Under the pieces are notes generated by a model that was given only the letters and a program-made list of their open reading frames with translations, did not search any database and was not told the origin of the DNA. Position numbers and translations under genes: made by a program. 34,746 nucleotides of DNA from Desulfobacterales bacterium RIFOXYA12_FULL_46_15 (GTDB lineage: Bacteria > Desulfobacterota > Desulfobacteria > Desulfobacterales > Desulfobacteraceae): NCBI GenBank assembly GCA_001799395.1, contig MGTJ01000162.1, forward strand, positions 145 through 34,890. Direction: 5' to 3'. Shown here in pieces: positions 2,196 to 23,162 of the stretch (its first letter is position 1; each line of letters starts with the position of its first letter).

Positions 2196-2197
2196 GT

Positions 2198-2772: not shown

Positions 2773-2796
2773 GGAAACGGAAACGGAAATGGAAAG
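2773..2796 (+). repeat. Four tandem hexamers across the feoA start
   Basis: GGAAAC, GGAAAC, GGAAAT and GGAAAG follow one another at 2773-2796. The ATG of feoA (2789-2791) lies across the third and fourth units, and the purine-rich units upstream supply the ribosome site. Confidence 0.7.
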
Positions 2797-5227: not shown

Positions 5228-5240
5228 AAAAGGAGGTTTG

Positions 5241-5405: not shown

Positions 5406-5446
5406 GAGCGCCCTGATTGATTAACAGCCGTCCGCTCTTATCTTTT
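5402..5446 (+). terminator. feo operon terminator
   Basis: ATAAGAGCG at 5402-5410 pairs perfectly with CGCTCTTAT at 5433-5441, followed by CTTTT. The loop is 22 nt, longer than usual, so efficiency may be moderate. The left arm contains the stop codon of the FeoB-associated gene. Confidence 0.65.
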
Positions 5447-5457
5447 AAAATAACACG

Positions 5458-5489
5458 GCATGACAGGAGAAAATGCAGAGCTGTCATGC
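5458..5489. repeat. 9-bp perfect inverted repeat before the small Cys gene
   Basis: GCATGACAG (5458-5466) and CTGTCATGC (5481-5489) form a perfect 9-bp stem with a 14-nt loop. No T-tract follows, so it is not an ordinary terminator. It lies 24 nt upstream of the ATG at 5514 and could be an operator or an mRNA structure. Confidence 0.5.
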
Positions 5490-5513
5490 AATTGAGTTTA
5501 TTCGGAGGTGATT

Positions 5514-5690
5514 ATGAAACCATATGTGAAAAATAAGGCAGCCATGTGCTGCGCCCTTGGAAAAAAACGGATGATGGATGCCCTCAGATCCTGTGATTAC
5601 TGCACCAACAGCCTTGAGGAACGCAGTGAATGCTATAGGGCCGTTGCCAAGGATACCGGCCTTCGCACCAAAACCTGTATACTGATGTAA
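5514..5690 (+). CDS. Small Cys-rich protein of unknown function
   Basis: I do not recognise this 58-residue protein. It is basic and contains six cysteines: a CC pair at residues 12-13, CDYC (about 27-30), and single cysteines near residues 40 and 55. The spacing suggests a metal or Fe-S site or a redox function. GGAGG at 5504-5508 places the ATG at 5514. It follows the feo operon in the same direction but after a terminator-like hairpin, so it may have its own promoter or be read through. The coding assignment is supported by the strong ribosome site, the compact fit between two hairpins and the strong terminator just after its stop. Confidence 0.65.
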   Translation: MKPYVKNKAAMCCALGKKRMMDALRSCDYCTNSLEERSECYRAVAKDTGLRTKTCILM

Positions 5691-5716
5691 GATAACCCAA
5701 TCCGGTTCGGGACTAT

Positions 5717-5763
5717 ACCGGGAGAATCCGGCCTTGAAGAAGGCCTGCATCTCCCGGTTTTTT
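5717..5763 (+). terminator. Strong intrinsic terminator
   Basis: ACCGGGAGA (5717-5725) pairs with TCTCCCGGT (5750-5758), with a nested GGCCTT/AAGGCC stem inside, followed by a run of T. It ends the rightward iron-uptake transcript. Confidence 0.85.
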
Positions 5764-5821
5764 ATTTTACAGCCGTAAAGGACGGCTGAATCCGGCCACC
5801 CGATTATAACTCCGGGACATT

Positions 5822-5938
5822 TTAACAAGTTTGCGCATGAAGAATATGGACCTCATTATCAAGTCTGTCCGCTAATAAATCCCCGGTGACCTCAAGATCA
5901 TATCGGGACTGGAGATTTAGCCAAAACTGGGGAGCCAT
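5822..5938 (-). pseudogene. Remnant of a HigA-type antitoxin gene (3' end only)
   Basis: Reading the minus strand from 5938 gives 38 residues beginning [17 protein letters not shown] and ending at TAA 5822-5824. FWLNLQ followed by YDLE is characteristic of the C-terminal part of HigA/VapI-type helix-turn-helix antitoxins. The DNA-binding domain is absent, and the sequence directly upstream is the macro-domain gene in another frame. It therefore appears to be a decayed remnant left by a deletion, and it is unlikely to be expressed as a protein. The upstream ATG is accidental and should not be taken as a start. No HigB toxin gene is seen nearby. Confidence 0.7.
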
Positions 5939-6440
5939 ATACGGCTTTCATCCAGACAGCCGTCATTTTTTCGCTAAAGAGATAAAAAATGATGGCCAGT
6001 GATTCATACTCCGGTCTTTGGCATATTGAAACGGCTATTCCTGCCGCTTCTTCAGGCGGATACCCGTAAACCCCGCATGAAATAGCGGGAAACGCAATGG
6101 ATTTACACGCATGGGAAATCGCCAGGTCCAGGCTGCTGCGGTATGCTGAAGCCAGAAGCGTTTCAGAAGGGGTATCGATCCCGTATCTGGGTCCCACAGT
6201 ATGAATCACATATTTTGCCTTCAAATTCCCGGCTTCAGTAATTCTTGCTTCTCCTGCCGGGCATCTTTCCCCGTTTATGGCTTTGACCTTTTTGCATGCC
6301 TCAAGCAATTTCGGACCGGCGGCCCTGTGAATGGCGCCATCCACCCCGCCGCCGCCCAGCATTACGGAATTGGCTGCATTGACAATGGCATCCACATCAG
6401 CCTTTGTGATATCGCCCAGAATTATTTTTATGGTGTTCAT
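5898..6440 (-). CDS. Macro-domain protein, O-acetyl-ADP-ribose deacetylase type
   Basis: This cytosolic macro-domain protein (180 aa) is of the MacroD/YmdB class, which removes ADP-ribose or acetyl groups from ADP-ribosylated products. GD (9-10), NAAN (21-24) and [14 protein letters not shown] (29-42, with the catalytic-type Asp34) form the ADP-ribose pocket, and [15 protein letters not shown] is the substrate loop. The ATG at 6440 has a good GGGGGAG ribosome site. The last dozen residues (from about GSPVLAK) are not family-like: they are an out-of-frame reading of the HigA remnant that overlaps the 3' end, so the original stop was lost. The fold itself looks complete. Confidence 0.9.
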
Positions 6441-6550
6441 ATATCTCTCCCCCTTAAGCGATCAATAGATCCCGGCTATGGATATATTTGATTCTGCCGG
6501 AACTGTCAAATCGGAAAAGATTTCATTCCCGGTGCTTTGTGAATCCCGGG

Positions 6551-6579
6551 TTGACAAAAAGGCGCTTCCTGTCTTATAT
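6551..6579 (+). promoter_or_regulatory. Promoter of the UshA-type nucleotidase gene
   Basis: TTGACA at 6551-6556, a 17-nt spacer and TTATAT at 6574-6579 predict a start about 70 nt before the gene. The rest of the interval 6441-6656 holds nothing else I can support. Confidence 0.55.
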
Positions 6580-6656
6580 CACATGATATTTTCAGTGATG
6601 TGGCTTTTGCATTTTTATAAATTGTTTTTAAAATTCATTAACCCGGAGTTGTTACT

Positions 6657-8225
6657 ATGAAAACAAGCCTTTTGTGTATTCGAAAATTCATATTTTTGAT
6701 CCTGCCGGTATTGTTCGCTTTGGGCCTGACCGTTCATGCAGAGACGCAAACCCATTCCAGCGTCAAGGGCGGATCAGACGCGATTCAGTGTACAATCCTG
6801 TTTTTTAATGACATCCACGGGCATCTCAAGCCTTTTCAGGCTAAGGAACAGGGACAGAAGATAGAAATGGGCGGGATCGCCCGGATAGCAGCTTTGGTTG
6901 AGAATATCCGTGCGGAAAATAATAAAAAAAATATTCCGACATTTTGCCTCCTGGCCGGGGATATTCTTCAGGGACCGCCCATGTCCACCGTTTTCAAGGG
7001 GGAGCCTGATGTAAAATGTTTTAATCAAATGGGAATCAATGCCATGACCATTGGGAACCATGAATTTGATTTCGGTCTGGACAATTTATTAAAGCTTAAG
7101 GATGCAGCGGCATTTCCGTTTCTCAGTGCCAATATCTATCTGAAAGCTACCGGGGAAAGGCTTTTTTGTCCCATGGTTGCAATACCCCTGGCACCAGGGA
7201 TTGATCTGAACATCATCGGGGTGACCACGAATGAACTTCTGTTTACCACTCACCCGAAGAACACCACTGATATCTACGTTCAGGACCCGGTGGAAGCAGT
7301 TCAGGCAGTATACCAGGCCGTGGAAGGAAAAGGGCCCGTGATCCTGCTGTCCCATAACAAGGCTGCCGAAGACAAAGCGATTGCCAGAAGATTACCCGGT
7401 CTCTTCGCCATTATCGGCGGACATGATCAGATTCTGCTGAATCCCCCTGGAATGGAAGGTTCCGTACCTATGTTCCAGGCCTTTGAAAAAGGAAAATATT
7501 TAGGACGGATTGACGCGATTGTGGACCCGTCCACCAAGCACGGTGAAATAACCCGATGGAATTACACGGCCATCACCCCGGAAATTCCGGAAAACACTGA
7601 AGTGGCTGCTGTTGTGATGGAGTATGACAATCAACTGGATAAGAAATTTCATGAAGTGATCGGGGAAGCTTTTGTTTATTTAAATGGTGACCGTGGGACG
7701 GTCCGGTATCAGGAGACCAACATGGGAAACCTGATCACGGACATAATGAAGAATTTCTCCGGTTCGGATATTGCCCTTCTGAACGCCGGAAGTATTCGAT
7801 CCGGCATTGACATAGGCCCCATCACCCTGGAGGAGGTTTATACGGCTTTCCCGTTTGAAAATGAACTGGTAGTGGTGAATATCTCAGGAGCGGATCTCCT
7901 GGCTGCCCTCACCCGCGCGGTCAAAGGAAGCCCGGCTGACGAAGACGGAGGATTCCTGCATGTTTCAGGGATGACCTTTAAGATAAAAAATGCCAGGCCC
8001 CTGGATATCATGATCAACGGCCTCCCGCTGGACCCTGCCGCCACATACCGTACTGCTGTTTCCGATTTTATAGCCGGCGGCGGTGACGGATATACCCTGT
8101 TCCGGGATAAAATCCCTTACCGATCCGGCTCCATGATCCGGGAACTCGTGGTCCAGGCCATCCGGAATCAGAAAGCCGTTTCACCGGCCACAGATGGCCG
8201 GATTGAGCGGCTGGACAAAATTTAG
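6657..8225 (+). CDS. Secreted 5'-nucleotidase / UshA-family metallophosphoesterase
   Basis: This periplasmic enzyme (522 aa) hydrolyses nucleotides or related phosphoesters to salvage nucleosides and phosphate. A signal peptide with a hydrophobic core at residues 10-25 ends near VHA-ET (28). The N-terminal metallophosphoesterase domain has NDIHGH (51-56), GD at 101-102, GNHEFDFG (133-140) and GGHD, which supply ligands for the two metals. The C-terminal substrate-binding domain has the family signature NAGSIRSGI and ends in the AGGGDGYTLF aromatic clamp. The length agrees with bacterial UshA proteins. The exact substrate (AMP, UDP-sugar or cyclic nucleotides) cannot be read from sequence. It is monocistronic; its stop lies 10 nt from the end of the convergent GNAT gene. 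Confidence 0.9.
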   Translation: MKTSLLCIRKFIFLILPVLFALGLTVHAETQTHSSVKGGSDAIQCTILFFNDIHGHLKPFQAKEQGQKIEMGGIARIAALVENIRAENNKKNIPTFCLLAGDILQGPPMSTVFKGEPDVKCFNQMGINAMTIGNHEFDFGLDNLLKLKDAAAFPFLSANIYLKATGERLFCPMVAIPLAPGIDLNIIGVTTNELLFTTHPKNTTDIYVQDPVEAVQAVYQAVEGKGPVILLSHNKAAEDKAIARRLPGLFAIIGGHDQILLNPPGMEGSVPMFQAFEKGKYLGRIDAIVDPSTKHGEITRWNYTAITPEIPENTEVAAVVMEYDNQLDKKFHEVIGEAFVYLNGDRGTVRYQETNMGNLITDIMKNFSGSDIALLNAGSIRSGIDIGPITLEEVYTAFPFENELVVVNISGADLLAALTRAVKGSPADEDGGFLHVSGMTFKIKNARPLDIMINGLPLDPAATYRTAVSDFIAGGGDGYTLFRDKIPYRSGSMIRELVVQAIRNQKAVSPATDGRIERLDKI

Positions 8226-8235
8226 CTGGACAGGT

Positions 8236-8787
8236 TTAAAATATGGTTTTCTTCATAGGTATGAAGTGGATAGCTACATCACCCGGGAGCTTATACTCCA
8301 AACGCTCTTCACCGATATAACCGCAAGCACGATAGAGTCTATGGCCGGGAAGCGTTGCAACCAACTCTGTGGAATGAAACCCATGTTCCAATGCCTCAGA
8401 TTCACACAATTCGATAAGACGGCGACCAATACCGAGCCTGGCCCAACCGGGTTTTACAAAAAACGCTCTAATTCTTGCAGATTCAGTATCGGGGTCAAGA
8501 AGTTCAGGCTGCCGGCCAGCCTGCCGGTCACCGCCAAAGAGCGTTTTCCTTTTGCTCCAGCCGCCACAGGCGATAATTTCAGATTGTGCTTCCACAACAA
8601 AATAGGTTTTGTCGTTAATAAGTGCGGTATCAAGGCCGAATGCACTGCCAAGGGCTGCATTTCTTTGAGATTCAGTGTAATCATTGCTGCCCAGGCCGTG
8701 GACGGATTCAACGATTATGGCCTTAATGGTTTCAATATCCGCAGATGTGGCTTTGCGGTAATTAAATTGAGATGATTTAGTATTCAT
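8236..8787 (-). CDS. GNAT-family N-acetyltransferase
   Basis: This is a predicted acetyl-CoA-dependent acetyltransferase of 183 aa. The GNAT fold is visible: an N-terminal helix region (ATSADIETIKAII), a central strand pair with VVEAQSEIIACGGW, then motif A with RAFFVKPGWARLGIGRRLIELCE, where R-x-x-G-I-G-R binds the CoA pyrophosphate, and motif B with ATLPGHRLYRACGY. The substrate is unknown. A stretch around residues 80-98 (KTLFGGDRQAG) is a loop insertion that is common in this subgroup. It stands alone between the nucleotidase and the pxp operon, and nothing in the context links it to either. Confidence 0.87.
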   Translation of the reverse strand: MNTKSSQFNYRKATSADIETIKAIIVESVHGLGSNDYTESQRNAALGSAFGLDTALINDKTYFVVEAQSEIIACGGWSKRKTLFGGDRQAGRQPELLDPDTESARIRAFFVKPGWARLGIGRRLIELCESEALEHGFHSTELVATLPGHRLYRACGYIGEERLEYKLPGDVAIHFIPMKKTIF

Positions 8788-8933
8788 ATTTTGTGATATA
8801 CCTTAACCAATAGTGTTTTTTTAATGGTCCAGCATTGCAAGAAATAGATCAGGATAAATCACTGAACATATATCCGGCAGTGCTGAACAGCTTGTTCCGG
8901 CGAGCAGGATTGATTCGGCGGCTTCCATGCGGA

Positions 8934-9881
8934 TTACAGGGCTTCAAGCCTTGTCTTGACGGCATGGAGCCTGTTTTTTTCATCAAGAATCAAGGCGTGG
9001 GCGGTTTTTAAATCGACACACTCAAACCAGAGGGTATCTCCCGGGGTGGTCTGGGCCACAAGAGGCAGGTCTGAGGAAATGACGGTGGCAATTTTGGCAT
9101 ACCCGCCCACGGTCTGCTCGACCAGGAGGATAATGGGCTGTTCATCAGCCGGGATCTGGATGCTGCCGGGCATGGAAGGCTCCGATACAATGCTTTTGGG
9201 CATGCCTTGTTTAATGGAGATGGGATTCCCCTGGAGCCGGTAGCCCATGCGGTCCGCTTTGACGGTGACACTATATTCGGATTGAAAAAGGGTTTTAAGA
9301 CCAGTATCAAAATATTCAGCCTGGGGTCCGGGGATGGCCCGGATGACAGCTTCGGACGGATACGCGGGAATGAAGGATTCCGGGATGGCCCGGACACGGG
9401 TTAATAACGGGAAATCCCCGGTTTCAAGCACATCCTCTTTTTGAAGGGGCCGTCCTTTAAAACCGCCTATTTTCCCGCCCACATAGGTGGAAAAGCTGCC
9501 CATAATTTCCGGAACCCTGATCCCGCCGCCAAAGGCCAGGTAAGCCCGGCACCCGGCCTGAACCTGGCCGATGGTGACAAGATCTCCGGGCCTGACCCGG
9601 ATGGAAGTCCATTGCTCCACCGGGCTATCATTGACACGGAGTCCCATTTTGGCCCCGGTCAGGGCAATGTCCATTTCTTTTTTGATTTCAAGGGAGGGCC
9701 CCATAACCGTCAGTTCCATGACCGGTGTATTGTCAGGGTTGCCCACCAGGAGATTTGCCAGAGTAAAGGCAAAGGCATCCAGAACGCCTGAAACAGGAAT
9801 GCCCATATTCTGGAATCCGAACCTGCCCCTGTCCTGGATGGTGGTATAACCTCCGGGAGAAATGACTTTTACGGCAGTCAT
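8934..9881 (-). CDS. pxpC: 5-oxoprolinase subunit C / biotin-dependent carboxyltransferase family (KipA-like)
   Basis: This 315-aa cytosolic protein is homologous to the KipA half of the urea-carboxylase carboxyltransferase domain. With PxpA and PxpB, family members hydrolyse 5-oxoproline to glutamate using ATP. The signature GGYTTIQDRGRFGFQNMG occurs near residue 10, followed by PVSGVLDAFAF, and FGGGIRVPEIMGS follows in the centre. ATG 9881 overlaps the pxpB stop by 4 nt (ATGA), with AGGAGG just upstream, so the two are coupled; an upstream in-frame extension to 10025 lies inside pxpB and is rejected. It is the last gene of the TRAP-pxp operon. Because biotin carboxylase and carrier genes lie in the same locus, a carboxyltransferase role remains open. 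Confidence 0.88.
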   Translation of the reverse strand: MTAVKVISPGGYTTIQDRGRFGFQNMGIPVSGVLDAFAFTLANLLVGNPDNTPVMELTVMGPSLEIKKEMDIALTGAKMGLRVNDSPVEQWTSIRVRPGDLVTIGQVQAGCRAYLAFGGGIRVPEIMGSFSTYVGGKIGGFKGRPLQKEDVLETGDFPLLTRVRAIPESFIPAYPSEAVIRAIPGPQAEYFDTGLKTLFQSEYSVTVKADRMGYRLQGNPISIKQGMPKSIVSEPSMPGSIQIPADEQPIILLVEQTVGGYAKIATVISSDLPLVAQTTPGDTLWFECVDLKTAHALILDEKNRLHAVKTRLEAL

Positions 9882-10588
9882 GACCTGTCCTCCTTTTCCT
9901 TTAGCCTTGCATATTCCTCCGGGGAAACGGGTATAAACCTGATCCAATCCCCAGCCTGGTAAAGAAAGGGGTTTTCCCGCCGGGGAGCAAACAGGGTCAA
10001 AGGGGTTCTTCCGATGATCTGCCATCCGCCCGGGCTGGCAATGGGATAAATACCGGTCTGGTTGTTGGCAATGCCCACAGACCCCTGGGGCACAACCATG
10101 CGGGGGGTTTTGAGCCGCGGGGTGAATAATTTTTCGTCCAGTCCGCCAAGAAAGGGAAACCCCGGGGTAAAGCCGACCATATAAATCAGATAATCCGGTG
10201 CAGCATGGCGCTTAATCACCTCTTCAGTGCTGAGACCCGCGGTTTTTGCAACCGTTTCTATATCAGGTCCAAATTCTTTGCCGTAACATACCGGGATGTC
10301 AACCCGTTTGAAGGGTCCGGCGTCTTCATCCAAAACAGCGGTGTCAAATTGCTCGATAAAGTTTACCAGTTTTTCTGGCCGGGTTTTCAGGGGCTCATAC
10401 ACCAGCAGCAAAGACCGGTAGGTGGGGATGATCTCAATCACCCCGTCCGGAGGTGTTTTTTTTACCGCTGCCGCCACAGATCTGACCCGGGCATTGACCG
10501 CTGGATCAATGCCTTCCCCGAATTCAACGATTAGGCCTGTGTCTCCTGCCAGGCGCCAGACCCATGGCATTTCTTGCTTTTTCCCCAT
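9878..10588 (-). CDS. pxpB: 5-oxoprolinase subunit B (KipI-like)
   Basis: This 236-residue cytosolic protein is the partner of PxpC and is homologous to the KipI half of the urea-carboxylase/allophanate carboxyltransferase domain. Family hallmarks are all present: IYMVGFTPGFPFLGGLDE, then VPQGSVGIANNQTGIYP and SPGGWQIIGRTPL. The N-terminal domain, with GDTGLIVEFG and PTYRSLLLVY, is also complete. It begins 2 nt after the pxpA stop and ends in a 4-nt overlap with pxpC, so the three are one translational unit. The Bacillus homologue KipI was first described as a kinase inhibitor; the metabolic role is the more general one. Confidence 0.9.
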   Translation of the reverse strand: MGKKQEMPWVWRLAGDTGLIVEFGEGIDPAVNARVRSVAAAVKKTPPDGVIEIIPTYRSLLLVYEPLKTRPEKLVNFIEQFDTAVLDEDAGPFKRVDIPVCYGKEFGPDIETVAKTAGLSTEEVIKRHAAPDYLIYMVGFTPGFPFLGGLDEKLFTPRLKTPRMVVPQGSVGIANNQTGIYPIASPGGWQIIGRTPLTLFAPRRENPFLYQAGDWIRFIPVSPEEYARLKEKEDRS

Positions 10589-10590
10589 GG

Positions 10591-11364
10591 TTAAAGCCTG
10601 TCTCCCACGGATTTTACGGTGATATTATGGGTTTCAAGGGTCTGCCGGATGGTTTTGACAAGATCGACGGCTTTGGGGTTGTCTCCGTGGACACACAGGG
10701 TCCGGACTTCAAGGGGCAGGCGGGTTCCGTCCACGGCTTTGACAAATCCGTCGGCCATGTCCAGGGCCCTTTTGGCCACCTGCGTTGGATCGGAAATGAC
10801 GGCGCCGGCCTCTTTTCTCGACAAAAGGGTCCCTTCCGGGGTATAGGCCCTGTCCGGGAAGGCTTCATAGACCACCCTCAGCCCCAGCTCTTCTCCGACC
10901 CGGCGCATGGTTTCCCCTTTTTTTCCGGCCAGGGCGACAAAATAAAGATCAGGGTCAAGACTCAGGATACCCTGGGCAATGGCCATGGCAATGGTTTTGT
11001 TTTCAACGGCATCCAGATAAAGGGCTCCATGGGGTTTGACGTAGGCCAGCCGAGTGCCGTGAACCTTGCAGAAGGCCATGAGGGCCCCCACCTGGAAAAT
11101 CAGGGATTGTTTGATTTCTTCATTGGTCAGGGCCATGCTCCGGCGGCCGAACCCCTGAAGATCCGGGTATCCGGGGTGGGCCCCGATGCTGACCTTGTTT
11201 TCAACAGCCAGCCGGACCGTTTTGTCCATGACCATGGGATCTCCGGCATGATAGCCGCAGGCAATATTGGCCGAACTGATATACTGCATCACGCTTGCAT
11301 CCATTCCAAGGGTATAAGCCCCGAAGCTCTCCCCCATATCACAGTTCAAATCAATGGTTTTCAT
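10591..11364 (-). CDS. pxpA: 5-oxoprolinase subunit A (LamB/YcsF family)
   Basis: This 257-aa protein of the LamB/YcsF family adopts a deacetylase-like barrel and is required for 5-oxoprolinase activity with PxpB and PxpC. Conserved segments are IDLNCDMGESFGAYTLG at the N-terminus, ANIACGYHAGDP (about 31-42), GAHPGYPDLQGFGRR, and VKPHGALY in the middle. The ATG at 11364 has AGGTGG 5 nt upstream; a GTG at 11373 would overlap that ribosome site and is less likely. It follows dctM by 19 nt and leads pxpBC. The context with a TRAP importer suggests that the substrate is taken up from outside rather than formed by cell turnover. Confidence 0.92.
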   Translation of the reverse strand: MKTIDLNCDMGESFGAYTLGMDASVMQYISSANIACGYHAGDPMVMDKTVRLAVENKVSIGAHPGYPDLQGFGRRSMALTNEEIKQSLIFQVGALMAFCKVHGTRLAYVKPHGALYLDAVENKTIAMAIAQGILSLDPDLYFVALAGKKGETMRRVGEELGLRVVYEAFPDRAYTPEGTLLSRKEAGAVISDPTQVAKRALDMADGFVKAVDGTRLPLEVRTLCVHGDNPKAVDLVKTIRQTLETHNITVKSVGDRL

Positions 11365-11383
11365 AATATCCACCTAAATGTGT

Positions 11384-12697
11384 TTATTGAGTTGTGGCCA
11401 TCAGTTCCGGCAGGTATAAGGCGATTTTGGGAAAAACCGTTAAAATCGCCGTGGTTAACAGCATCAGGAAAAAGAAGGGCAGGGCATATTTTGCGATTGT
11501 CATGATAGGCTCGCCGGTCAGCCCCTGTATGACAAAAAGGTTAAACCCCACGGGCGGGGTGATCTGGCTGATTTCCACCATGAGTACCAGGTAGATCCCG
11601 AACCAGATGGGGTCAAACCCGGCGGCCAGGACCATGGGAAGAGCAATGGGAAGGGTCATGACCACAATGGAAAACCCGTCCAGAAGACAGCCCAGTACAA
11701 TGTATACACAGCCCAGAAGAATCATCAGCATATAGGGTGACAGGTTCATCTGGGTGATGGACTGGGTGATGGCAGCAGGAATCCCCAGAAACCCCATGGT
11801 CCTGGATAAAAAGCCTGCGCCCACCACAATGAGCATGATCATGGCATTGGTTTTGACTGCCCCTTTCAGACATTCAAGGCAAATCCCAAAGGTCATCTGC
11901 TGGTTGAGAACGGCAAAAATGAATGCCCCCAGAACCCCGATGGCTGCAGCTTCCGTGGGAGTGGCAAACCCCCCGTAGATGCTGCCCAGTACTGCCAGGA
12001 TCAGGATCACAATGGGCGCAAGATCTTTGAGCCCGGAAATGCGGTCTGCCCAGGAATAGGTGTCCTGGGTCCTGGGCGCAATCTCCGGATTTCTGATGCC
12101 CCGGTAGATGATATAGACGCAATAGATCCCGGCCAGAAGCAGACCCGGCAGAATCCCGGCCATGAACATCTTTCCGATGGAAACTTCGGCCTGGATGGCA
12201 TAGACGATCATGATCAGGGAAGGCGGTATTAAAAACCCCAGGGTTCCGGCACCGGCCAGGGATCCCATGGAGAGGCTTTTGTCATATCCGAGTTTTTCAA
12301 ATTCCGCCAGGGTGATCCGTCCCACTGTGGCTGTCGTGGCCGCACTGGAACCGGATACGGCGGCAAAAAGCGTACAGGCCACGATATTCATGAGCAAAAG
12401 GCCGCCTGGAAGACGGTAGAGCCAGGGGACAAGCGCCCTGAACAGTTTTTCCGAAATCCCGGAGCGGTACAGGATCTCACCCATGAAGATAAACAGGGGA
12501 AGGGCCACATATTCCCATTTTTCAATGGTGGCCCACAAAGATGAGGCCATATTGTTGCCGGCCGGGAGGGAAGAAAAAAAAGTCATACCCACAAACCCGA
12601 CAATAAAAAGGGAAAAACCGACCCATACCCCTGCGGCCAGTGTTAAAAAAAGAACGCCAAAGATAATGACAGACATGAACAGGAATTCTGTTTCCAT
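11384..12697 (-). CDS. dctM: TRAP transporter large permease subunit (DctM type)
   Basis: This is the twelve-helix integral membrane subunit of a tripartite ATP-independent periplasmic importer, driving Na+- or H+-coupled uptake of an organic acid. The protein is 437 aa, normal for DctM. Typical stretches include GEILYRSGISEKLF, the hairpin region SGSSAATTATVGRITL, and GFLIPPSLIMIVYA. TPTEAAAIGVLGA and ITPPVGFNLFVIQG near the C-terminus complete the family pattern. Its ATG overlaps the dctQ stop by one base (TAATG), so the permease subunits are made together. It is followed closely by pxpA, which links transport to lactam or amide metabolism. Confidence 0.93.
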   Translation of the reverse strand: METEFLFMSVIIFGVLFLTLAAGVWVGFSLFIVGFVGMTFFSSLPAGNNMASSLWATIEKWEYVALPLFIFMGEILYRSGISEKLFRALVPWLYRLPGGLLLMNIVACTLFAAVSGSSAATTATVGRITLAEFEKLGYDKSLSMGSLAGAGTLGFLIPPSLIMIVYAIQAEVSIGKMFMAGILPGLLLAGIYCVYIIYRGIRNPEIAPRTQDTYSWADRISGLKDLAPIVILILAVLGSIYGGFATPTEAAAIGVLGAFIFAVLNQQMTFGICLECLKGAVKTNAMIMLIVVGAGFLSRTMGFLGIPAAITQSITQMNLSPYMLMILLGCVYIVLGCLLDGFSIVVMTLPIALPMVLAAGFDPIWFGIYLVLMVEISQITPPVGFNLFVIQGLTGEPIMTIAKYALPFFFLMLLTTAILTVFPKIALYLPELMATTQ

Positions 12698-13200
12698 TAC
12701 ACCACCTCCTCTTTGGTTTTGATGGCGGCAAAGGTCTTAAGGCTGGTGGCAAAGAGCTGGATAAAAAAACAGCCCGCCCCCGCGAGCATGACGGTCTGGG
12801 GAATCCATAAGGGCGTATTGGTCAGGGTTCCTGAGGTTGATTCATAACGGATGGCGGACTGGACCATTTTAAACAGATACCACCACAGATATCCCATGAA
12901 AATTGTTGTGATTGATGCTGAAATAAAGGTCGTAATTCTTGCCGCAAGCCCGGGCAGAAATCCCAGAACCAGGGTGATCCGGATATGGCCTTTTTCCCTG
13001 AGGCAATATCCTGCGCCCATGAAAATAATGGCGGCAAGGCCATAGGCGCTGTATTCGTCGGCTATCAGGGTTGTTTTTTCAAACAGGTTCCATAAAAAAA
13101 TTTCAATCAGAATCAGGAGGGTCATCAGCCCCAGGATGGCAGCGGAAACGGTTGCCATCCAGTCACTTAATCCATCGGAAAATTTTATAAGTTTATTCAT
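12697..13200 (-). CDS. dctQ: TRAP transporter small permease subunit (DctQ type)
   Basis: This is the four-helix small membrane subunit (167 aa) of the TRAP importer. Helices are predicted at about residues 14-34, 47-65, 86-110 and 130-155. The family signature is the region LIADEYSAYGLAAIIFMGAGYCLREKGHIR, with the polar E-x-x-x-Y and REKGHIR motif. It sits between the binding protein (27-nt gap) and dctM (1-nt overlap) in the usual P-Q-M order. Confidence 0.9.
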   Translation of the reverse strand: MNKLIKFSDGLSDWMATVSAAILGLMTLLILIEIFLWNLFEKTTLIADEYSAYGLAAIIFMGAGYCLREKGHIRITLVLGFLPGLAARITTFISASITTIFMGYLWWYLFKMVQSAIRYESTSGTLTNTPLWIPQTVMLAGAGCFFIQLFATSLKTFAAIKTKEEVV

Positions 13201-13227
13201 ATTATCACCCGGGCTTGAGATAAAGGG

Positions 13228-14217
13228 TTAACGGCCGGTTATCCTGTAATATTCCGTCAGGATTTTCTGGGCATCGGCTCCGGCTTTGGTGGCCCATTCA
13301 GCCCTTAATTTTTCGCCCACGGCATTGAGTTCGGAACGAAACTGTTTGCTCACAGGGCTTACGGTCATTCCGTTTCCAATCAGGGTAGCATGGCTTTTCC
13401 GGTCCATATCACCAGCCAGGTTCCACATTTCATCTTCCATTTGAGCAGCAATTTCCAGCACAACGACCTGGGTGTTTTTATCCAGCTTATTCCACGCATC
13501 CAGGTTGACGTTTATCATGTTGACAGGACCTACAATATTGATGGGGGTGAAAAATTTGAGTACTTCCCATGCCTTTGCATCCACACCTGAAACCGAAGAC
13601 GTATACATGGAATCCAGAAGACCTGCCTTCATGGCCGGATAGACTTCCGAGAAGGGCATTTTCCGGGCCGCAATACCCGTGGCTTCACCAAAGGTAAGGC
13701 CGGTGCCGTCGTATACCCTCATCTTGAGCCCTTTTAAATCAGATTCTGATTTTACGGGACGCTGGGTATAAATGCCGGAAAACGGCCACACAGATGTATA
13801 GAGAGTCATCTGGTTGAATTTTTTCAGGTTTTCTGCATACACCGGTTTTGCCAATTGATACAAAAGACGCTGTTCAAAGGTATTGGTGGAAATAAAAGGC
13901 TGGGCCGTCAATGCCAGTACCGGGGCATCCCCCTCCACCATGCCGGTGGGAATCTCGGCAACGGCCACCTGGCCTTCTGCAACGGATTTTAAAAGTTCAG
14001 GGCCCTTGAACCCGAGCGCTGCACCGGGATGGAGCACAATTGCCAATTCCCCGCCCGTGGCTTTGGCCACTTCATCTGCAAATTTTTGTGCCCCTTCGGT
14101 ATGGAAATTACCGGCAGGATAATTCAGGTGCAGATCCCATTTTGTCTTAGCCATGGCAGTGGAATAAAGTGATAAAGCAAACATCAAACCCGTTAATCCA
14201 ATTAACAATTTTTTCAT
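13228..14217 (-). CDS. dctP: TRAP transporter substrate-binding protein (DctP type)
   Basis: This is the periplasmic solute-binding component of the TRAP importer (329 aa). The signal peptide runs to about residue 23 (TAMA-KTKWD). The DctP fold is recognised from NYPAGNFHTEGAQKFADEV, the segment SDLKGLKMRVYDGTG with the conserved Arg that usually binds the substrate carboxylate, and GLLDSMYTSSVSG. This predicts a carboxylate ligand but not which one. A good AAGGAAGGGG ribosome site precedes the ATG at 14217. It is separated by 63 nt from the GntR regulator gene on the same strand, and that gap holds a TATAAT (14253 to 14248) that may give an extra promoter. Confidence 0.93.
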   Translation of the reverse strand: MKKLLIGLTGLMFALSLYSTAMAKTKWDLHLNYPAGNFHTEGAQKFADEVAKATGGELAIVLHPGAALGFKGPELLKSVAEGQVAVAEIPTGMVEGDAPVLALTAQPFISTNTFEQRLLYQLAKPVYAENLKKFNQMTLYTSVWPFSGIYTQRPVKSESDLKGLKMRVYDGTGLTFGEATGIAARKMPFSEVYPAMKAGLLDSMYTSSVSGVDAKAWEVLKFFTPINIVGPVNMINVNLDAWNKLDKNTQVVVLEIAAQMEDEMWNLAGDMDRKSHATLIGNGMTVSPVSKQFRSELNAVGEKLRAEWATKAGADAQKILTEYYRITGR

Positions 14218-14280
14218 TTTGGTTCCCCTTCCTTAGATTATGTTGATATTATAAGGCCTTCCAATCAAAGGTGCGTTTTT

Positions 14281-14973
14281 TTACAATGTCATAAAAATAA
14301 TGATCCTTTGTCTGAAAGTCTCAATGTGGTCCTGCAACAATTGTTTCAGCATTGGTTTATCTTTCCGGGCCAGGCTTTCGATGATCTGCTCATGTTCCTG
14401 TACAACGGATTTATAATGGAGTTCCAGTGATCTTGTCGGGCCTATGATATTGTTATAGGACAGGTAAGACAGCCTTTTGGCGTCTTTTCTCACATCATTC
14501 ACAGCCCGGATCAGGAACTCATTCCGGGAGCTTTGTGCAAAATTCATGTGAAATTCATGGTTTGCTTCCACCAGGTCAAAAACATTATTTGAAAAGATGG
14601 CTTTTTTAACTGCTTCATTTGAAACCTGCATTTTTTCGATAAAGGCTGAACAATCTTTCATTACGGCCACATCAGCGACGCCGAATTCAAAGAGATGCAT
14701 GCTTTCAAACATGGCTTTGGTATTCTGAAGCGTTATGGGTCTGACAATAACCCCTTTATTGGGTTGTGATTCAATCATGTTTTCACCCTGAAGCCGGACA
14801 AGGGCTTCACGGACAGGAGTTCTCCCGATTCCCAGTTCTTCTGCTATCAGGTTTTCTTCAAGATACTGGCCGGGTTGATATTCCAGGCAGATAATTTTTC
14901 TGACAATGGTCTCATATGCTATGACAGCCAAAGGTTGTTTCGGGATTTTCTGAATTTTTGCCAAAGCTGTCAT
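14281..14973 (-). CDS. GntR-family regulator with FCD ligand domain (FadR subfamily)
   Basis: This 230-aa transcriptional regulator probably responds to the imported acid or a product of it. The N-terminal winged helix-turn-helix spans about residues 18-78, with PGQYLEENLIAEELGIGRTPVREALVRL, the classic GntR recognition stretch. The all-helical FCD domain follows, with histidines in ANHEFH, VQEHEQI and LQDHIETF consistent with the metal-binding site of this domain, which often holds a carboxylate ligand. It lies at the centre of the locus: TRAP and pxp genes continue downstream on the same strand, and accB-accC-creatininase diverge from it. A long perfect palindrome lies in the intergenic region and is its most likely binding site. 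Repression lifted by ligand is typical for the subfamily. Confidence 0.92.
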   Translation of the reverse strand: MTALAKIQKIPKQPLAVIAYETIVRKIICLEYQPGQYLEENLIAEELGIGRTPVREALVRLQGENMIESQPNKGVIVRPITLQNTKAMFESMHLFEFGVADVAVMKDCSAFIEKMQVSNEAVKKAIFSNNVFDLVEANHEFHMNFAQSSRNEFLIRAVNDVRKDAKRLSYLSYNNIIGPTRSLELHYKSVVQEHEQIIESLARKDKPMLKQLLQDHIETFRQRIIIFMTL

Positions 14974-14989
14974 AGGGTGTACATCCTTT

Positions 14990-14995
14990 ATTATA
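14990..14995 (-). promoter_or_regulatory. Candidate -10 element of the GntR gene
   Basis: TATAAT reads on the minus strand from 14995 to 14990, about 17 nt before the regulator ATG. No convincing -35 is seen at 17 nt, and the region it would occupy overlaps the edge of the palindrome, so the promoter would be short and easily blocked. Confidence 0.4.
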
Positions 14996-15013
14996 TGGTT
15001 TTTAATGCTGATT

Positions 15014-15058
15014 AAAATATACTTGACATAGATTAAAAATATATGTCAAGTATATTTT
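15014..15058. promoter_or_regulatory. Perfect 17-bp inverted repeat, likely GntR operator
   Basis: The left arm at 15014-15030 is the exact reverse complement of the right arm at 15042-15058, with an 11-nt AT-rich spacer. Each arm holds the core ATACTTGACATA, so TTGACA occurs once on each strand. It lies midway between the divergent regulator and biotin-carrier genes, which is where an autoregulating GntR repressor controlling both directions would bind. Confidence 0.75.
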
Positions 15059-15067
15059 TAAAAATAT

Positions 15068-15073
15068 TATAAT
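15068..15073 (+). promoter_or_regulatory. -10 element of the accB-accC-creatininase operon
   Basis: A perfect TATAAT at 15068-15073 lies 26 nt before the accB ATG. The -35 region falls in the right arm of the palindrome (TGTCAA at 15044-15049, 18-nt spacing), so a bound regulator would compete with RNA polymerase. Confidence 0.55.
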
Positions 15074-15099
15074 GCTCAAACCTAAAAAAGGAGGGAATC

Positions 15100-15351
15100 A
15101 TGAGTGACACAAAATATGAGGTCCTGTCACCGCTCATGGGAACTTTTTATCGTGCCTCAGCCCCGGACAACCCGCCCCTGGTGGAGGCCGGCCAGAAAAT
15201 CAAGGCTTCGGATGTTTTATGCGTCATTGAATCCATGAAAATATTTACAGAACTTCGCAGTGAATATTCCGGGGTAGTAAAAGAAATCCTGGTGGAAAAC
15301 GAAGACCCGGTCATGAAAAAGCAAGTCCTCATGATCATAGAAAAACAATAG
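15100..15351 (+). CDS. accB: Short stand-alone biotin carboxyl carrier protein
   Basis: This 83-residue biotinyl-domain protein carries carboxybiotin between a biotin carboxylase and a carboxyltransferase. It consists of little more than the biotinyl domain: PLMGTFYRASAPDNPPLVEAG, then ESMKI with the biotinylated Lys47, and a C-terminal strand region ending in LMIIEKQ. E. coli AccB is about twice as long and has an N-terminal linker and thumb; this short form is typical of accessory carboxylases. AGGAGGG at 15089-15095 marks the start. It is followed by accC 23 nt later. No accA or accD occurs in the window, so its acceptor may not be acetyl-CoA; the gene symbol reflects homology only. Confidence 0.9.
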   Translation: MSDTKYEVLSPLMGTFYRASAPDNPPLVEAGQKIKASDVLCVIESMKIFTELRSEYSGVVKEILVENEDPVMKKQVLMIIEKQ

Positions 15352-15374
15352 GATGACCGTGAAAGGAAGAGACC

Positions 15375-16712
15375 ATGCCGTTTAAGCGTATCCTGATCGC
15401 CAACCGGGGCGAGATTGCCTTAAGGATCATCCGCGCCTGCAAAGAAATGGGGATTGAAACCGTTGCCGTTTATTCCGATGCAGACAAGGACAGCCTCCAT
15501 GTCAGATATGCGGATGATGCCGTCCATATCGGACCGGCATTAAGCTATAAGAGTTATCTGAATATGGATAAAATCATGGCAGCGGCCAGAGAGGCAAACG
15601 CAGACGCCATCCATCCCGGGTACGGATTTTTATCTGAAAATGCCGCTTTTGCAAAGGCATGTGAGGATGCCGGCATCACCTTTATCGGACCTTCTGCAGA
15701 GTGCATTGCAAGATCAGGAAACAAATCATCTGCCCGGAAGACCTTGACCGGTCTTGGCATTCCCGTTATTCCCGGGAGTGAGGATATCCTTGCCTCGCCG
15801 GACAGGGCCTGTGACCTGGCGCAAACCATCGGATTTCCCGTGATTTTAAAAGCTTCCGGCGGCGGCGGGGGCCGGGGCATGAGAATTGCTCATACTCCGA
15901 AAGAACTGGCAGAGGCCTTTTGCCTGGCATCGGGGGAGGCAAAGGCCGCCTTTGGCAATCCTGATATTTATCTGGAAAAATATATTACAAACCCTCGCCA
16001 TATTGAAATCCAGATCCTGGGGGACAAGTCTGGCAATTATATCCACCTGGCGGAAAGGGAATGCAGTATCCAGAAGCGGTATCAGAAACTCATTGAAGAA
16101 GCTCCTTCCTCCTTTGTGGATGGCGACCTTAGGGCCGAACTCGGGAACACCGCCATCACCATTGCAAAGGCCCTGGGCTATACCAATGCAGGCACCATTG
16201 AGTTTTTAGTAGACAAGGACAAAAACTTTTATTTCATGGAAGTCAATGCCAGGGTCCAGGTGGAGCATCCTGTCACGGAGATGGTCACCGGCATTGATAT
16301 TATCCGGCAGCAGATCCTGATTGCCGCAGGCAACAGGCTTTCCCTGAAACAGGAAGACATCGTTCCAAGGGGCTGGGCCATGGAATGCCGGATCAATGCC
16401 TCAGACCCGGATGATGATTTCATGCCGTCTCCGGGGAAAATCGAATCCATTGTATTTCCCGGCGGGCCAGGGGTCAGGATCGACACCCATATCCATGAAG
16501 GCTACATGGTTGGCCCTTTTTATGACTCCCTCATCGGCAAGCTCATTGTCTGGGACCAGGACCGGCCTTCTGCCATACGCCGTATGAAACGGGCCCTGGA
16601 TGAATTTGACATCAGGGGAATTCAAACCACCATTCCGTTTTTTAGAAAGATTTTCCAGAATCAGGCATTTCAAAAAGGTGATATTGATACTCATTTTCTA
16701 GACAATATGTAA
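15375..16712 (+). CDS. accC: Biotin carboxylase
   Basis: This 445-aa enzyme uses ATP and bicarbonate to carboxylate biotin on the carrier protein. The N-terminal domain begins KRILIANRGEIALRI. The ATP-grasp domain has the glycine-rich loop KASGGGGGRGMR and the active-site segment EVNARVQVEHPVTEMVTGID. The C-terminal domain contains ECRINASDPDDDFMPSPGKI. All catalytic regions look intact and the length is that of stand-alone AccC. It is co-transcribed with the carrier gene and the creatininase-like gene, divergently from the TRAP-pxp operon. A genome usually has another accC for fatty-acid synthesis; this copy sits in a catabolic context and probably serves a dedicated carboxylase. Confidence 0.93.
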   Translation: MPFKRILIANRGEIALRIIRACKEMGIETVAVYSDADKDSLHVRYADDAVHIGPALSYKSYLNMDKIMAAAREANADAIHPGYGFLSENAAFAKACEDAGITFIGPSAECIARSGNKSSARKTLTGLGIPVIPGSEDILASPDRACDLAQTIGFPVILKASGGGGGRGMRIAHTPKELAEAFCLASGEAKAAFGNPDIYLEKYITNPRHIEIQILGDKSGNYIHLAERECSIQKRYQKLIEEAPSSFVDGDLRAELGNTAITIAKALGYTNAGTIEFLVDKDKNFYFMEVNARVQVEHPVTEMVTGIDIIRQQILIAAGNRLSLKQEDIVPRGWAMECRINASDPDDDFMPSPGKIESIVFPGGPGVRIDTHIHEGYMVGPFYDSLIGKLIVWDQDRPSAIRRMKRALDEFDIRGIQTTIPFFRKIFQNQAFQKGDIDTHFLDNM

Positions 16713-16733
16713 TCTTATCTTAAGGAGGCAGCC

Positions 16734-17516
16734 ATGACTGGCAGTATCCGGCTCCAGGACATGACCTGGGAAGAAGTTCGGAAAGCAGTTGAAAAAAGCT
16801 CAAAAACAATCCTTCTGCCCTTTGGCAGCACTGAACAGCACGGGCCTCACCTGCCGGTAGGGACAGACACCCTGGTGGCCGTCACCCTGGCCGAAGATGC
16901 GGGGCAGAAAACCTCCGTCCCCGTGGCACCGCCCCTGTGGTTCGGATGGAGCCCCCATCACATGATCCTGCCCGGAACCATCACCATCCGCCCGGACCTC
17001 TTGGCTGAAATTGCCTTTGACATTATTTCTTCCCTTCACCACCACGGGTTTGAAAAATTTGTCCTCATCAACGGGCACCGCATTGTCAATATTGCCTGGC
17101 TCCAGATGGCCGGCGAACGGGCCAAACGGGAACTGGGCGTCAAGCCGGTTATTTTCGACCCGGCTTATATGTCCAAATCCATTATTGCCTCCCTGGGCTG
17201 GGGACAGGTGGGGCATGCCGAAGAAATCGAAACTTCCCATATGATGTACCGGTACCCGGACCTGGTGAAGATGGACCGGGCCATTGACAATCCCCATAGG
17301 CCGAAGCCATTATACAGTGTGGACCCTTCCTATGAAGGAGATACCCTTTGCTATGTTCCCAGCAGCCCGGAAGAAATGAGAGCTGCCACCCTGAAATCAG
17401 GCGGAACCTCGGGCGAGCCCTCCAAGGCATCGGCCAAGGGAGGGGAATGTTATCATGACCATCTGGTTTCCCGGCTGGTTGAGATCATCCGGATGCTTCA
17501 AATGGAAAAATTTTGA
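16734..17516 (+). CDS. Creatininase-family amidohydrolase
   Basis: This predicted metal-dependent amidohydrolase (260 aa) belongs to the creatininase family, members of which open cyclic amides or cleave small amides. Glu34, His36 and Asp45 lie in GSTEQHGPHLPVGTDT, at the same numbers as the metal ligands of creatininase. Another candidate ligand, His115, is in NGHRIVN, and HAEEIETS (161-168) matches the second conserved acidic block. The usual NGHGGN is replaced by NGHRIVN, one residue longer, which may reshape the active site. AAGGAGG precedes the ATG and the gene follows accC by 21 nt. The context suggests hydrolysis of an amide or lactam intermediate. A mycofactocin-type peptidase role is unlikely because no mft genes are seen. 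Confidence 0.87.
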   Translation: MTGSIRLQDMTWEEVRKAVEKSSKTILLPFGSTEQHGPHLPVGTDTLVAVTLAEDAGQKTSVPVAPPLWFGWSPHHMILPGTITIRPDLLAEIAFDIISSLHHHGFEKFVLINGHRIVNIAWLQMAGERAKRELGVKPVIFDPAYMSKSIIASLGWGQVGHAEEIETSHMMYRYPDLVKMDRAIDNPHRPKPLYSVDPSYEGDTLCYVPSSPEEMRAATLKSGGTSGEPSKASAKGGECYHDHLVSRLVEIIRMLQMEKF

Positions 17517-18822: not shown

Positions 18823-19602
18823 TTATGGGCCGAGAATCAATCTTTGGGGGTCACAGTCCTCTCTTAAGATTTTCAGTTCCGTTTCAGTGGGCGGATCAGC
18901 CTCGGAAGCCTTTGACACATCCATTTTAAATTCCGTGTTAGAAAGGATGTCATCCTGGGTAATCCCTGGATAAAATTTGTCCAGGTACATCCTGCCCGTA
19001 TCCTTGTCAAAGCGCATCACGCCGAGATTGGTGACCACGATGCTGACCCCGCCGGGACGAAGGCCGGCTTTTTTCCGTGTATCGCCGCCGGCCAGCTGCC
19101 CGGGGCTGGTGAGATAATCCAGTTTCCTGACAAATTTTTGCCGTTCGTGTTGCATAAATGCAATGCAGCGGGGGACAAAGCTGAGCACATCACACCCGCC
19201 GCCGCTCCCGGGAAAGCGAATCCTGGGGGATTCATAATCTCCGATACAGGTGGTGTTCAGGTTTCCGTAAATATCGATCTGGGCTGCACCTAAAACGGCA
19301 ATGACCTTGTCGCCTGTTATCCGGTTCTGCATGGTGGCAAAGGCATCTGCCAGACTTGAATTTGCTGCGGCCCGGTACATGATGCGGGGGTCGGCAACGG
19401 CAAAGGGGATTTCCTCCAGAAGGGAATCCATGGCACCGGTTTCAAAGAAAATAACACTGTCCGGTGCATTGATTTTTTTGGCAGCCATGGCAGCCAGCAT
19501 TGAAATGCCGGTGCCGCTGAAAACGATATCGTTGTTCTTGATTTCCCTGGCTGCCATAATGGTCATGATTTCTTTGGGTGTATAGGCTGGGGCTTTGTTC
19601 AT
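18823..19602 (-). CDS. CoA-transferase subunit B (GctB-like)
   Basis: This is the beta subunit (259 aa) of a family I CoA-transferase that activates an organic acid by moving CoA from a donor thioester. The catalytic-type glutamate is Glu54 in IFFETGAMDS; the number matches the active-site Glu54 of glutaconate CoA-transferase. The glycine-rich segment GSGGGCDVLSFVPR and the block LGAAQIDIYGNLNTT are family features. The gene starts 1 nt after the subunit A stop and has AAGGG as ribosome site. Physiological substrates cannot be told from sequence; related pairs act on glutaconate, 3-oxoacids or sterol-ring catabolites. Confidence 0.88.
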   Translation of the reverse strand: MNKAPAYTPKEIMTIMAAREIKNNDIVFSGTGISMLAAMAAKKINAPDSVIFFETGAMDSLLEEIPFAVADPRIMYRAAANSSLADAFATMQNRITGDKVIAVLGAAQIDIYGNLNTTCIGDYESPRIRFPGSGGGCDVLSFVPRCIAFMQHERQKFVRKLDYLTSPGQLAGGDTRKKAGLRPGGVSIVVTNLGVMRFDKDTGRMYLDKFYPGITQDDILSNTEFKMDVSKASEADPPTETELKILREDCDPQRLILGP

Positions 19603-19603
19603 A

Positions 19604-20581
19604 TCAATCCCTTTTCATATTAACGCTGTAACCGGTTTCCGGGTCTGCTGCAATGGCCCGGAGTCTGTCCTTTCCAATGAGATTTAAGAATTCACTATGG
19701 TTTTTCACCCCATAAATATACGTATCCTGGTAGGTTTTAAAGGCCTCTTCAGTTTTTGCCGCCCGGCCAACCTTTTTTAAATACTGGGAATCATAATCAT
19801 AATAGCCGTACACGGCAGTGGGATAGGCCCCCATGGGAACGTGGCAGACAGCCGACACATGGAGAAAGGGGATCTGGTTTAAATCCGGGTTCTGCCTTAA
19901 GTTTTCTTTTTCAACCAGTTCTTCACAAGTCACAATGACATTCCGGGATGCCTTTGCCTGTTCGATGTCTGCAAAGGTAAGGCCCTGGATACGGCAGGTC
20001 CCCATGGAATCGGCCTTTTGAACATGGATAAGGGTGACATCCGGGTTAATAGCCGGCACCAGCAGTACTTTTTCTGCTTCTGCCCAGTTTCCAAAGGGAT
20101 TGTCAATGACAACCAGTTTTTTATTCACGATTTTGGGATCCGACTCCCGGAGGGATTCGGAAAACCCCCACCGGGTCAGGATATCGGATCCAAACCCGGA
20201 AAGGGTGGGTAAAAACGGTACCCCCATGGCCCCGGCCATGAATCTTAAACTCATCATATAATTTGAATAGTCTTCGCATAATATTTCTTTGTTCTGGACG
20301 GCCCTGGCAAACCGGATACAGGTGGGGGCGGCCTTTCCGATCCCCGCATAGGCAATCTCAAGCTTTGAAATGCATCCGGCACCGATGAGTTCATCAAGGC
20401 CTGCCCCATTGGAATGGGCGTATAAATGCAGATCCCTGATGTTCTGCCGGATGATTTCATACACGGCTGCCATGGGATTCCGGGTTAATGTAAACCCGCC
20501 GATGGAGATGTGGGAGCCGTTTTTTACATAGAGTTGAATTGCCTCGTGAAGGGGCATTGTTTTGTCCATAGGGGTTTCCAT
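19604..20581 (-). CDS. CoA-transferase subunit A (GctA-like)
   Basis: This is the alpha subunit (325 aa) that forms the active CoA-transferase with the next gene. The N-terminal region has HISIGGFTLTRNPMAAVYEI, the GG-hairpin region of the family, and LHLYAHSNGAGLDELIGAG follows. Further conserved parts are the middle block NPDVTLIHVQKADSMG and PMGAYPTAVYGYYDYD. The length fits GctA (about 320 aa). It follows the TRAP permease stop after 1 nt. An in-frame Met four codons later is a possible alternative start. The placement inside a transporter operon suggests that the imported acid is activated to its CoA ester on entry. Confidence 0.88.
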   Translation of the reverse strand: METPMDKTMPLHEAIQLYVKNGSHISIGGFTLTRNPMAAVYEIIRQNIRDLHLYAHSNGAGLDELIGAGCISKLEIAYAGIGKAAPTCIRFARAVQNKEILCEDYSNYMMSLRFMAGAMGVPFLPTLSGFGSDILTRWGFSESLRESDPKIVNKKLVVIDNPFGNWAEAEKVLLVPAINPDVTLIHVQKADSMGTCRIQGLTFADIEQAKASRNVIVTCEELVEKENLRQNPDLNQIPFLHVSAVCHVPMGAYPTAVYGYYDYDSQYLKKVGRAAKTEEAFKTYQDTYIYGVKNHSEFLNLIGKDRLRAIAADPETGYSVNMKRD

Positions 20582-20582
20582 T

Positions 20583-22592: not shown

Positions 22593-22607
22593 GATATTCC
22601 CCTGGAA

Positions 22608-23153: not shown

Positions 23154-23162
23154 GGGATTTGC

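Follow-up and report, generated by a model that had tools for sequence, protein, structure and literature searches.

Why should the genes of a 5-oxoprolinase be accompanied by a biotin carboxylase (BC) and a biotin carboxyl carrier protein (BCCP) of their own? The question is raised by a stretch of DNA of 34,746 nucleotides, here called the window, from Desulfobacterales bacterium RIFOXYA12_FULL_46_15 (contig MGTJ01000162.1, positions 145 to 34,890). Its genome resembles Desulfobacula, with L067 of a Desulfobacula sp. as the nearest named locus. Two divergent gene arms were found in the window, every part of which could be placed by Pfam and NCBIfam profiles. One arm encodes the 5-oxoprolinase subunits PxpC, PxpB and PxpA, a tripartite ATP-independent periplasmic (TRAP) importer and a GntR/FCD regulator, and the other BCCP, BC and a creatininase-family enzyme (Table 1). 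Genes, positions and strands agree with those given in the original prediction, which had described the locus as a split urea-carboxylase-like system.

PxpABC is widespread, and its two catalytic subunits have a biotin-carboxyltransferase fold. Lineages with a dedicated BC and BCCP beside close relatives without them are a natural experiment on the mechanism of PxpABC. From sequence comparisons, the locus is proposed to be a 5-oxoproline regulon in which dedicated biotin subunits likely hand carboxyl groups to PxpBC, and we consider the chances of such a biotin coupling to be even.

Association of the biotin pair with PxpABC

Gene content provides the main evidence. Among 58 relatives, PxpB was found in 25 and a BC of at least 68% identity in 16, all of them within those 25; none of the 33 relatives without PxpB had such a BC (Fisher 2.6e-8, ignoring relatedness). 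A class sample of 147 evenly drawn genomes, which shares genomes with the first set, contained PxpB in 39 (E 1e-20) and BC in 15 (E 1e-170). All 13 BC homologues of at least 63% identity occurred in PxpB genomes (Fisher 5.8e-9, likewise ignoring relatedness), and two BCs at 57-59% (G128, G180) came from genomes without PxpB. In 11 of these 13 genomes, BC and PxpB are at most 12 kb apart on the same contig; G140 and G075 have them on different contigs of fragmented assemblies. When 12 genomes were checked for both subunits, the four with a BC of at least 67% identity were the same four that had BCCP. BC and PxpB thus co-occur in both of these overlapping surveys, and there is good support for BCCP-BC being functionally tied to PxpABC.

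Single loci vary in their arrangement. L071, from cultured Desulfospira joergensenii DSM 10085, carries the complete set. In L043, the genes form a collinear single-strand run, BCCP-DctPQM-PxpABC-BC. In L154 (genome G097, 1944-15246), a peptide/oligopeptide ABC importer and a zinc-carboxypeptidase-like gene are found instead of the TRAP system, which suggests pyroglutamyl peptides as the source; BCCP-BC and the palindrome described below are kept, and an aminotransferase gene lies downstream of BC. The PxpB and BC frames of L032, from the fragmented genome G013, are broken by decay or assembly error.

Between the arms of the window lies an exact palindrome of 31 bp, ACTTGACATA-N11-TATGTCAAGT, with 0 such sites expected by chance in the window. 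Exact copies of it occur in 26 of 165 loci, or 18 distinct genomes once duplicates were removed. All 165 loci were chosen for pxp or BC, so the counts show conservation, not specificity. At four of the palindrome loci (L041, L042, L069 and L164), no BC is seen. A scan of 12 further loci, with up to three mismatches allowed, did not find the palindrome in seven (L037, L068, L072, L075, L157, L158 and L160), some of which are truncated at the end of a contig. That both divergent arms form one regulon is well supported.

The combination of BC, BCCP and PxpABC also recurs in other phyla. Twelve plasmid regions, picked from 40 of 595 matching records, were opened. A BC gene (separate or fused) and a biotinyl gene stand beside pxp in eight of them, a fused urea carboxylase was found in one, and three have neither. 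Loci with PxpABC and BC/biotinyl neighbours were seen in Shinella, Rhizobium, Neorhizobium, Mesorhizobium, Levilactobacillus, Natronorubrum, Staphylococcus intermedius and Bacillus norwichensis, and thus span Bacillota, rhizobia and a haloarchaeon. The order in Neorhizobium (L064:3006-9254) is NRAMP, PxpA, D-glutamate cyclase, fused PxpBC and, adjoining it, fused BC-BCCP; in B. norwichensis (L112) it is PxpB-PxpC-PxpA-Na/solute symporter-BCCP-BC. The MK biotinylation motif was not seen in the pxp-associated biotin attachment protein of Mesorhizobium (L065:11666-12061).

The distribution was also examined in trees. In a PxpC tree of 89 of 91 rows (L035 and L106 were dropped as short), the BC label changes 11 times compared to a shuffled mean of 24.6, with 0 of 500 shuffles as low, and the 26-row clade of the window holds 19 rows labelled BC-bearing. 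The BC tree has 37 rows, 29 of them pxp-associated, and four label changes, fewer than in any of 500 shuffles (mean 7.3); the pxp-associated rows cluster without forming a single clade. Neither tree includes the seven duplicate loci (L067, L071, L074, L076, L078, L092 and L107), and the BC tree also lacks L010, L135, L137 and L153. For L032, L033, L036, L037, L039 and L070, the BC-bearing label rests on a BC on another contig. L126 and L127 are labelled BC-less despite contigs that are too short, and for several others, the label BC-less reflects the flank examined. Bacillus rows were labelled ambiguous in both trees, among them the operon-like L112; L114 kept this label. Since the BC labels are clustered yet not confined to a single clade, and the loci are spread across lineages, BCCP-BC with PxpABC is, as these loci suggest, a recurrent, patchy module.

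The likely substrate

The importer gives the best indication of the substrate. The top three PDB matches of the receptor DctP by sequence are 2pfy, 2pfz and 6wgm, which also rank first in a fold search with its predicted model (mean predicted local distance difference test, pLDDT, 86.0). According to their titles, these structures are pyroglutamate-binding (Bordetella DctP7 and DctP6) or pyroglutamate-specific. The nearest solved relatives of DctP are DctP6 and DctP7 of Bordetella pertussis, with 32-34% identity and a TM-score (query length) of 0.83-0.86. In sequence and fold, DctP resembles the pyroglutamate TRAP receptors, and it is predicted to bind the same compound. Because its three best matches are receptors of this type, 5-oxoproline (pyroglutamate) is favoured, with good support, as the likeliest substrate. 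The regulator has a counterpart in Corynebacterium glutamicum, where the GntR-type PxpR binds 5-oxoproline and controls pxpTABC (PMC13274462).

A Pfam match to D-glutamate cyclase lies within the BC-bearing clusters of Neorhizobium (L064) and Levilactobacillus (L066). This enzyme connects D-glutamate and 5-oxo-D-proline, and its presence fits 5-oxoproline as substrate. Matches to the family also adjoin pxp genes without BC, so the cyclase accompanies pxp in general.

The original prediction had considered a broad list of lactams and amides and had given the creatininase-like enzyme a part in the chemistry. Neither idea found support. The enzyme scores 121.6 against the creatininase equivalog TIGR04448 (cut-off 235). 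In L072, L088, L123 and L164, a creatininase-family gene adjoins PxpC although the flank shows no BC, so its association is with pxp rather than with BCCP-BC. Hydantoin and creatinine are not supported as substrates in view of the equivalog score and of the pyroglutamate-type matches of the receptor, and the importer points to 5-oxoproline.

Possible biotin coupling and its alternatives

Could BC and BCCP be housekeeping subunits of acetyl-CoA carboxylase that lie here by chance? Both score as the acetyl-CoA carboxylase type, BC above the accC cut-off and BCCP below the BCCP cut-off yet above that of PRK07051, and the window's own genome (G000) has just one further stand-alone BC, clustered with its own carboxyltransferase (CT) and carrier. 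A 1229-aa frame also appeared in the BC search and was taken for pyruvate carboxylase. No AccA/AccD partner was found among the carboxyltransferases profiled in this genome: the ACCA-family matches over the cut-off all fall within MmdA-like carboxyltransferases, and accD was matched only below the cut-off. As the original prediction had stated, there is no accA or accD among the annotated genes of the window (Pfam/NCBIfam profiles). No stand-alone BC was among the matches listed for the genus members G008 and G009, which are 100% complete by markers; their best BC matches are a 1244-aa frame, taken for pyruvate carboxylase, and carbamoyl-phosphate-synthase-like frames. Several near-complete genus members likewise show no stand-alone BC. 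Moreover, the BCCP-BC arm shares the pxp palindrome. BCCP and BC are thus probably not housekeeping parts, and this explanation, which the original prediction had named as fatal to its own, is regarded as very improbable. On contig C45, an MmdA-like CT adjoins an OadA-like biotin protein, which perhaps provides a transcarboxylase route to malonyl-CoA.

If the biotin pair acts with PxpABC, 5-oxoproline would be imported by the TRAP system and sensed by the GntR/FCD protein, which would govern both arms via the palindrome. PxpABC would open the ring to glutamate with ATP being spent. BC would carboxylate the biotin on BCCP using ATP and bicarbonate, and the carboxylated carrier would most likely dock on PxpBC, which would transfer the carboxyl group onto the lactam of 5-oxoproline. 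PxpA would then open the activated ring, and the resulting N-carboxyglutamate would lose CO2. Motifs of a biotin-dependent carboxylase are present, namely ESMK in BCCP as well as a Gly-rich loop and EHPVTE/ECRINA in BC, which we take to be the BC motifs. A physical partnership of BCCP-BC with PxpBC is moderately supported, and the carboxylation of the lactam by PxpBC is something we only infer. The full proposal of a biotin- and bicarbonate-dependent 5-oxoprolinase, in which BC and BCCP load PxpBC, the lactam is N-carboxylated and PxpA hydrolyses the ring, is a tentative one, to which we give somewhat less than even chances.

A structural precedent exists. PDB entry 9yx5 (2025) is, by its title, a long-chain acyl-CoA carboxylase complex of Mycobacterium smegmatis with MSMEG_0435-MSMEG_0436 bound; it holds the BC-BCCP subunit AccA3 and the PxpC/PxpB homologues MSMEG_0435-0436. 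These proteins are induced under nitrogen limitation (PMC4617892), and MSMEG_0435 is among the genes listed as changed in PMC11001197. On a coupling of BCCP-BC to PxpBC, co-occurrence and 9yx5 speak in favour and the BC-less relatives against.

Several observations weigh against the coupling. In 9yx5, judged by its title and chains, the partner is a shared complex with AccA3, whereas BC and BCCP are dedicated here. One BC-less relative is G061 (L072; G175 in the class sample), a metagenome-assembled genome with a single-contig chromosome, 91% complete by markers. It keeps PxpABC, the same TRAP system and the creatininase gene, yet searches for BC (E 1e-30) and BCCP (1e-5) gave no match in it. 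PxpABC is also present in G002, G011, G058 and G059, where this BC and BCCP were not found; the window-type BC was likewise not found in G142 in the class-sample search. G002, G058 and G059 hold fragments or genes of another BC type, and among these four and G061 only G061 and G011 gave no BC match of any kind. G011 is 96% complete, and its pxp contig stops where the BC of its sister starts. Among 61 genome loci chosen by PxpB similarity, BC lies within the examined flank in eight and was not seen there in 53, many of the contigs being short and the BC lying on another contig in at least one case (L070). At the thresholds applied, no column of PxpA, PxpB or PxpC tells relatives with BC apart from those without. 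Finally, the Bacillus PxpABC studied by Niehaus et al. in 2017 is said to be active without biotin. Because BC-less relatives keep PxpABC and no residue column separates the two groups, BCCP-BC seems to be expendable in the course of evolution, and the whole clade is unlikely to depend strictly on biotin. In view of the near relatives without the pair, the biotin route would be a supplementary or optional mode of this PxpABC, which would also work in another way.

The retention of PxpABC without BCCP-BC and the missing residue signature favour an ordinary, biotin-independent PxpABC, with BCCP-BC serving another reaction in the same regulon, e.g., with a CT elsewhere that handles glutamate-derived carbon. 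Candidate partners are present, as the own genome encodes six PF01039 carboxyltransferases, and for five of these the contig gave no BC match. The six lie on contigs C1, C15, C36, C45, C51 and C164, and those profiled are MmdA-like (the one on C164 is cut by the contig end and was left out of profiling). The assumed mechanism of PxpABC is phosphorylation of 5-oxoproline by PxpB and PxpC (PMC13274462), and PMC8453981 states that co-purified PxpB and PxpC hydrolyse ATP, which also speaks for the ordinary enzyme. However, PxpA, PxpB and PxpC are the constant neighbours of the BC/biotinyl genes in the opened rhizobial, lactobacillus, staphylococcus and haloarchaeon loci, neither survey turned up a close BC homologue in a genome without PxpB, and the partners are physically associated in 9yx5. 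We therefore consider a separate reaction for BCCP-BC to be possible but rather doubtful.

How far does the likeness to urea carboxylase reach? By its PDB matches, PxpBC has the carboxyltransferase fold of that enzyme. At the profile level, PxpA, PxpB and PxpC are adjacent, with NF003814 and TIGR00370 over their cut-offs and PxpC over the broader TIGR00724. PxpC scores 213.4 against the equivalog NF045499 (cut-off 500) and is therefore classed at the family level only. The urea carboxylase profile TIGR02712 (cut-off 1303.85) meets separate open reading frames (ORFs) here, all scoring far lower. The catalytic lysine in subdomain C/D of urea carboxylase is K1605 in KlUA (PMC5770610). Its counterpart in the window's PxpB, equated by extending a match, is Arg158, which counts against a mechanism closely like that of urea carboxylase. 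Lysine occupies this column in 5 of 87 rows (L058, L063, L145, L150 and one fused urea carboxylase), each of which has BC and BCCP. The other 82 rows, including the window, have arginine; by label, they comprise 26 BC-bearing, 53 BC-less and 3 ambiguous rows. The PxpB homologue in 9yx5 likewise has arginine at this position, so this residue is compatible with a biotin partner.

L058 (4799-16222) is a second pxp-like locus in genome G001. It encodes a sugar-type ABC importer, PxpA, a C/D-type CT with the catalytic lysine (PKYNPPRTWTP), a second CT, a small biotinyl protein (NCMK), BC, a class-III aminotransferase and an aldehyde ferredoxin oxidoreductase. Judged by these genes, it is a split, truly urea-carboxylase-like set, nearer to the original idea than the window.

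A true split urea-carboxylase-like enzyme for another amide or lactam (urea, hydantoin or creatinine) at the window itself would be in line with the common CT fold and with the creatininase-family gene in the BCCP-BC arm. A further hint comes from the mumTLUHC operon of Acinetobacter baumannii, which comprises an NRAMP gene, two unassigned genes, an allophanate-hydrolase-like gene and a BC gene, is interpreted as urea carboxylase and has mumC reported as necessary for urea use (PMC5050338). Its gene order, likened by description and not by sequence, is that of the Neorhizobium locus L064. By this analogy, the mum operon seems to be of the same kind as the pxp/biotin set and may act on 5-oxoproline instead of, or besides, urea. 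Arginine in place of the catalytic lysine, an importer that indicates pyroglutamate, the missed creatininase cut-off and the lack of an allophanate hydrolase among the annotated genes of the window all oppose such an enzyme, which is unlikely. From the original prediction, the three functions on separate subunits and the tie of BCCP and BC to PxpABC are supported, with 9yx5 as precedent; Arg158 and the BC-less relatives speak against a close mechanistic likeness.

The locus among known systems

The coordinates are given in Table 1. The listed ORF of PxpC begins at 10025, and the likelier start is its residue 49, the ATG at 9881, which shares four bases with the PxpB stop in an ATGA overlap. 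Stop codons are frequent upstream of this ATG in relatives, and 34 of 91 PxpC rows were affected during extraction. Further along the window (18823-24131, minus strand), a CoA-transferase-like pair, a fused TRAP permease, a DUF1850 protein and a TAXI receptor are encoded, which probably form a separate catabolic unit.

Table 1. Features of the pxp/biotin locus, in window coordinates
Feature	Position	Strand	Basis
PxpC (CT_A_B)	8934..9881	-	PF02626 293 bits; TIGR00724 291.6 vs cut-off 230.2
PxpB (CT_C_D), Arg158	9878..10588	-	PF02682 253 bits; TIGR00370 215.8 vs cut-off 145.55; model pLDDT 90.9
PxpA (LamB/YcsF), ring-opening subunit	10591..11373	-	PF03746 326 bits; NF003814 353 vs cut-off 226
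DctM, TRAP large permease	11384..12697	-	PF06808, TIGR00786
DctQ, TRAP small permease	12697..13200	-	PF04290
DctP, TRAP solute receptor, predicted pyroglutamate-binding	13228..14217	-	PF03480; matches 2pfy, 2pfz, 6wgm
GntR/FCD regulator, putative PxpR-like role	14281..14973	-	PF00392 + PF07729
Conserved palindrome, presumed operator for both arms	15021..15051	.	exact in the window; found in relatives
BCCP, 83 aa, ESMK biotinylation motif	15100..15351	+	PF00364
Biotin carboxylase (BC), 445 aa	15375..16712	+	PF00289/PF02786/PF02785; TIGR00514 683 vs cut-off 626.5
Creatininase-family metallohydrolase	16734..17516	+	PF02633 216 bits; under creatininase equivalog cut-off

If the biotin coupling is true, a new biotin enzyme would open a stable lactam by carboxylation and would form an optional module found in both bacteria and archaea. 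Split acetyl-CoA carboxylases annotated next to pxp genes would be recast, and the annotation of such stand-alone subunits would be corrected. In the open-licence literature, no paper on a biotin-dependent PxpABC was found among the matches listed. Adjacent split UCT (carboxyltransferase) genes were noted in 2011, with functional data said to be nil (PMC3199775), and the terms allophanate and urea had no match in the text of PMC4347857. The unrelated caprolactamase is bicarbonate-dependent, and its authors consider that the lactam may be carboxy- or phospho-activated (PMC8453981).

Among characterized systems, the PxpABC of B. subtilis, E. coli and C. glutamicum likewise have PxpA, PxpB and PxpC in one operon, and C. 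glutamicum pxpTABC likewise has a GntR-type regulator beside the importer and pxpABC (PMC13274462). Unlike these, the window has a TRAP system instead of PxpT, a dedicated BCCP and BC, and a creatininase-family gene. With urea carboxylase and urea amidolyase, it has in common BC, BCCP and a carboxyltransferase of the CT_A_B and CT_C_D type. It differs from them in its separate subunits, in PxpA taking the place of allophanate hydrolase, and in Arg158 standing for the catalytic lysine.

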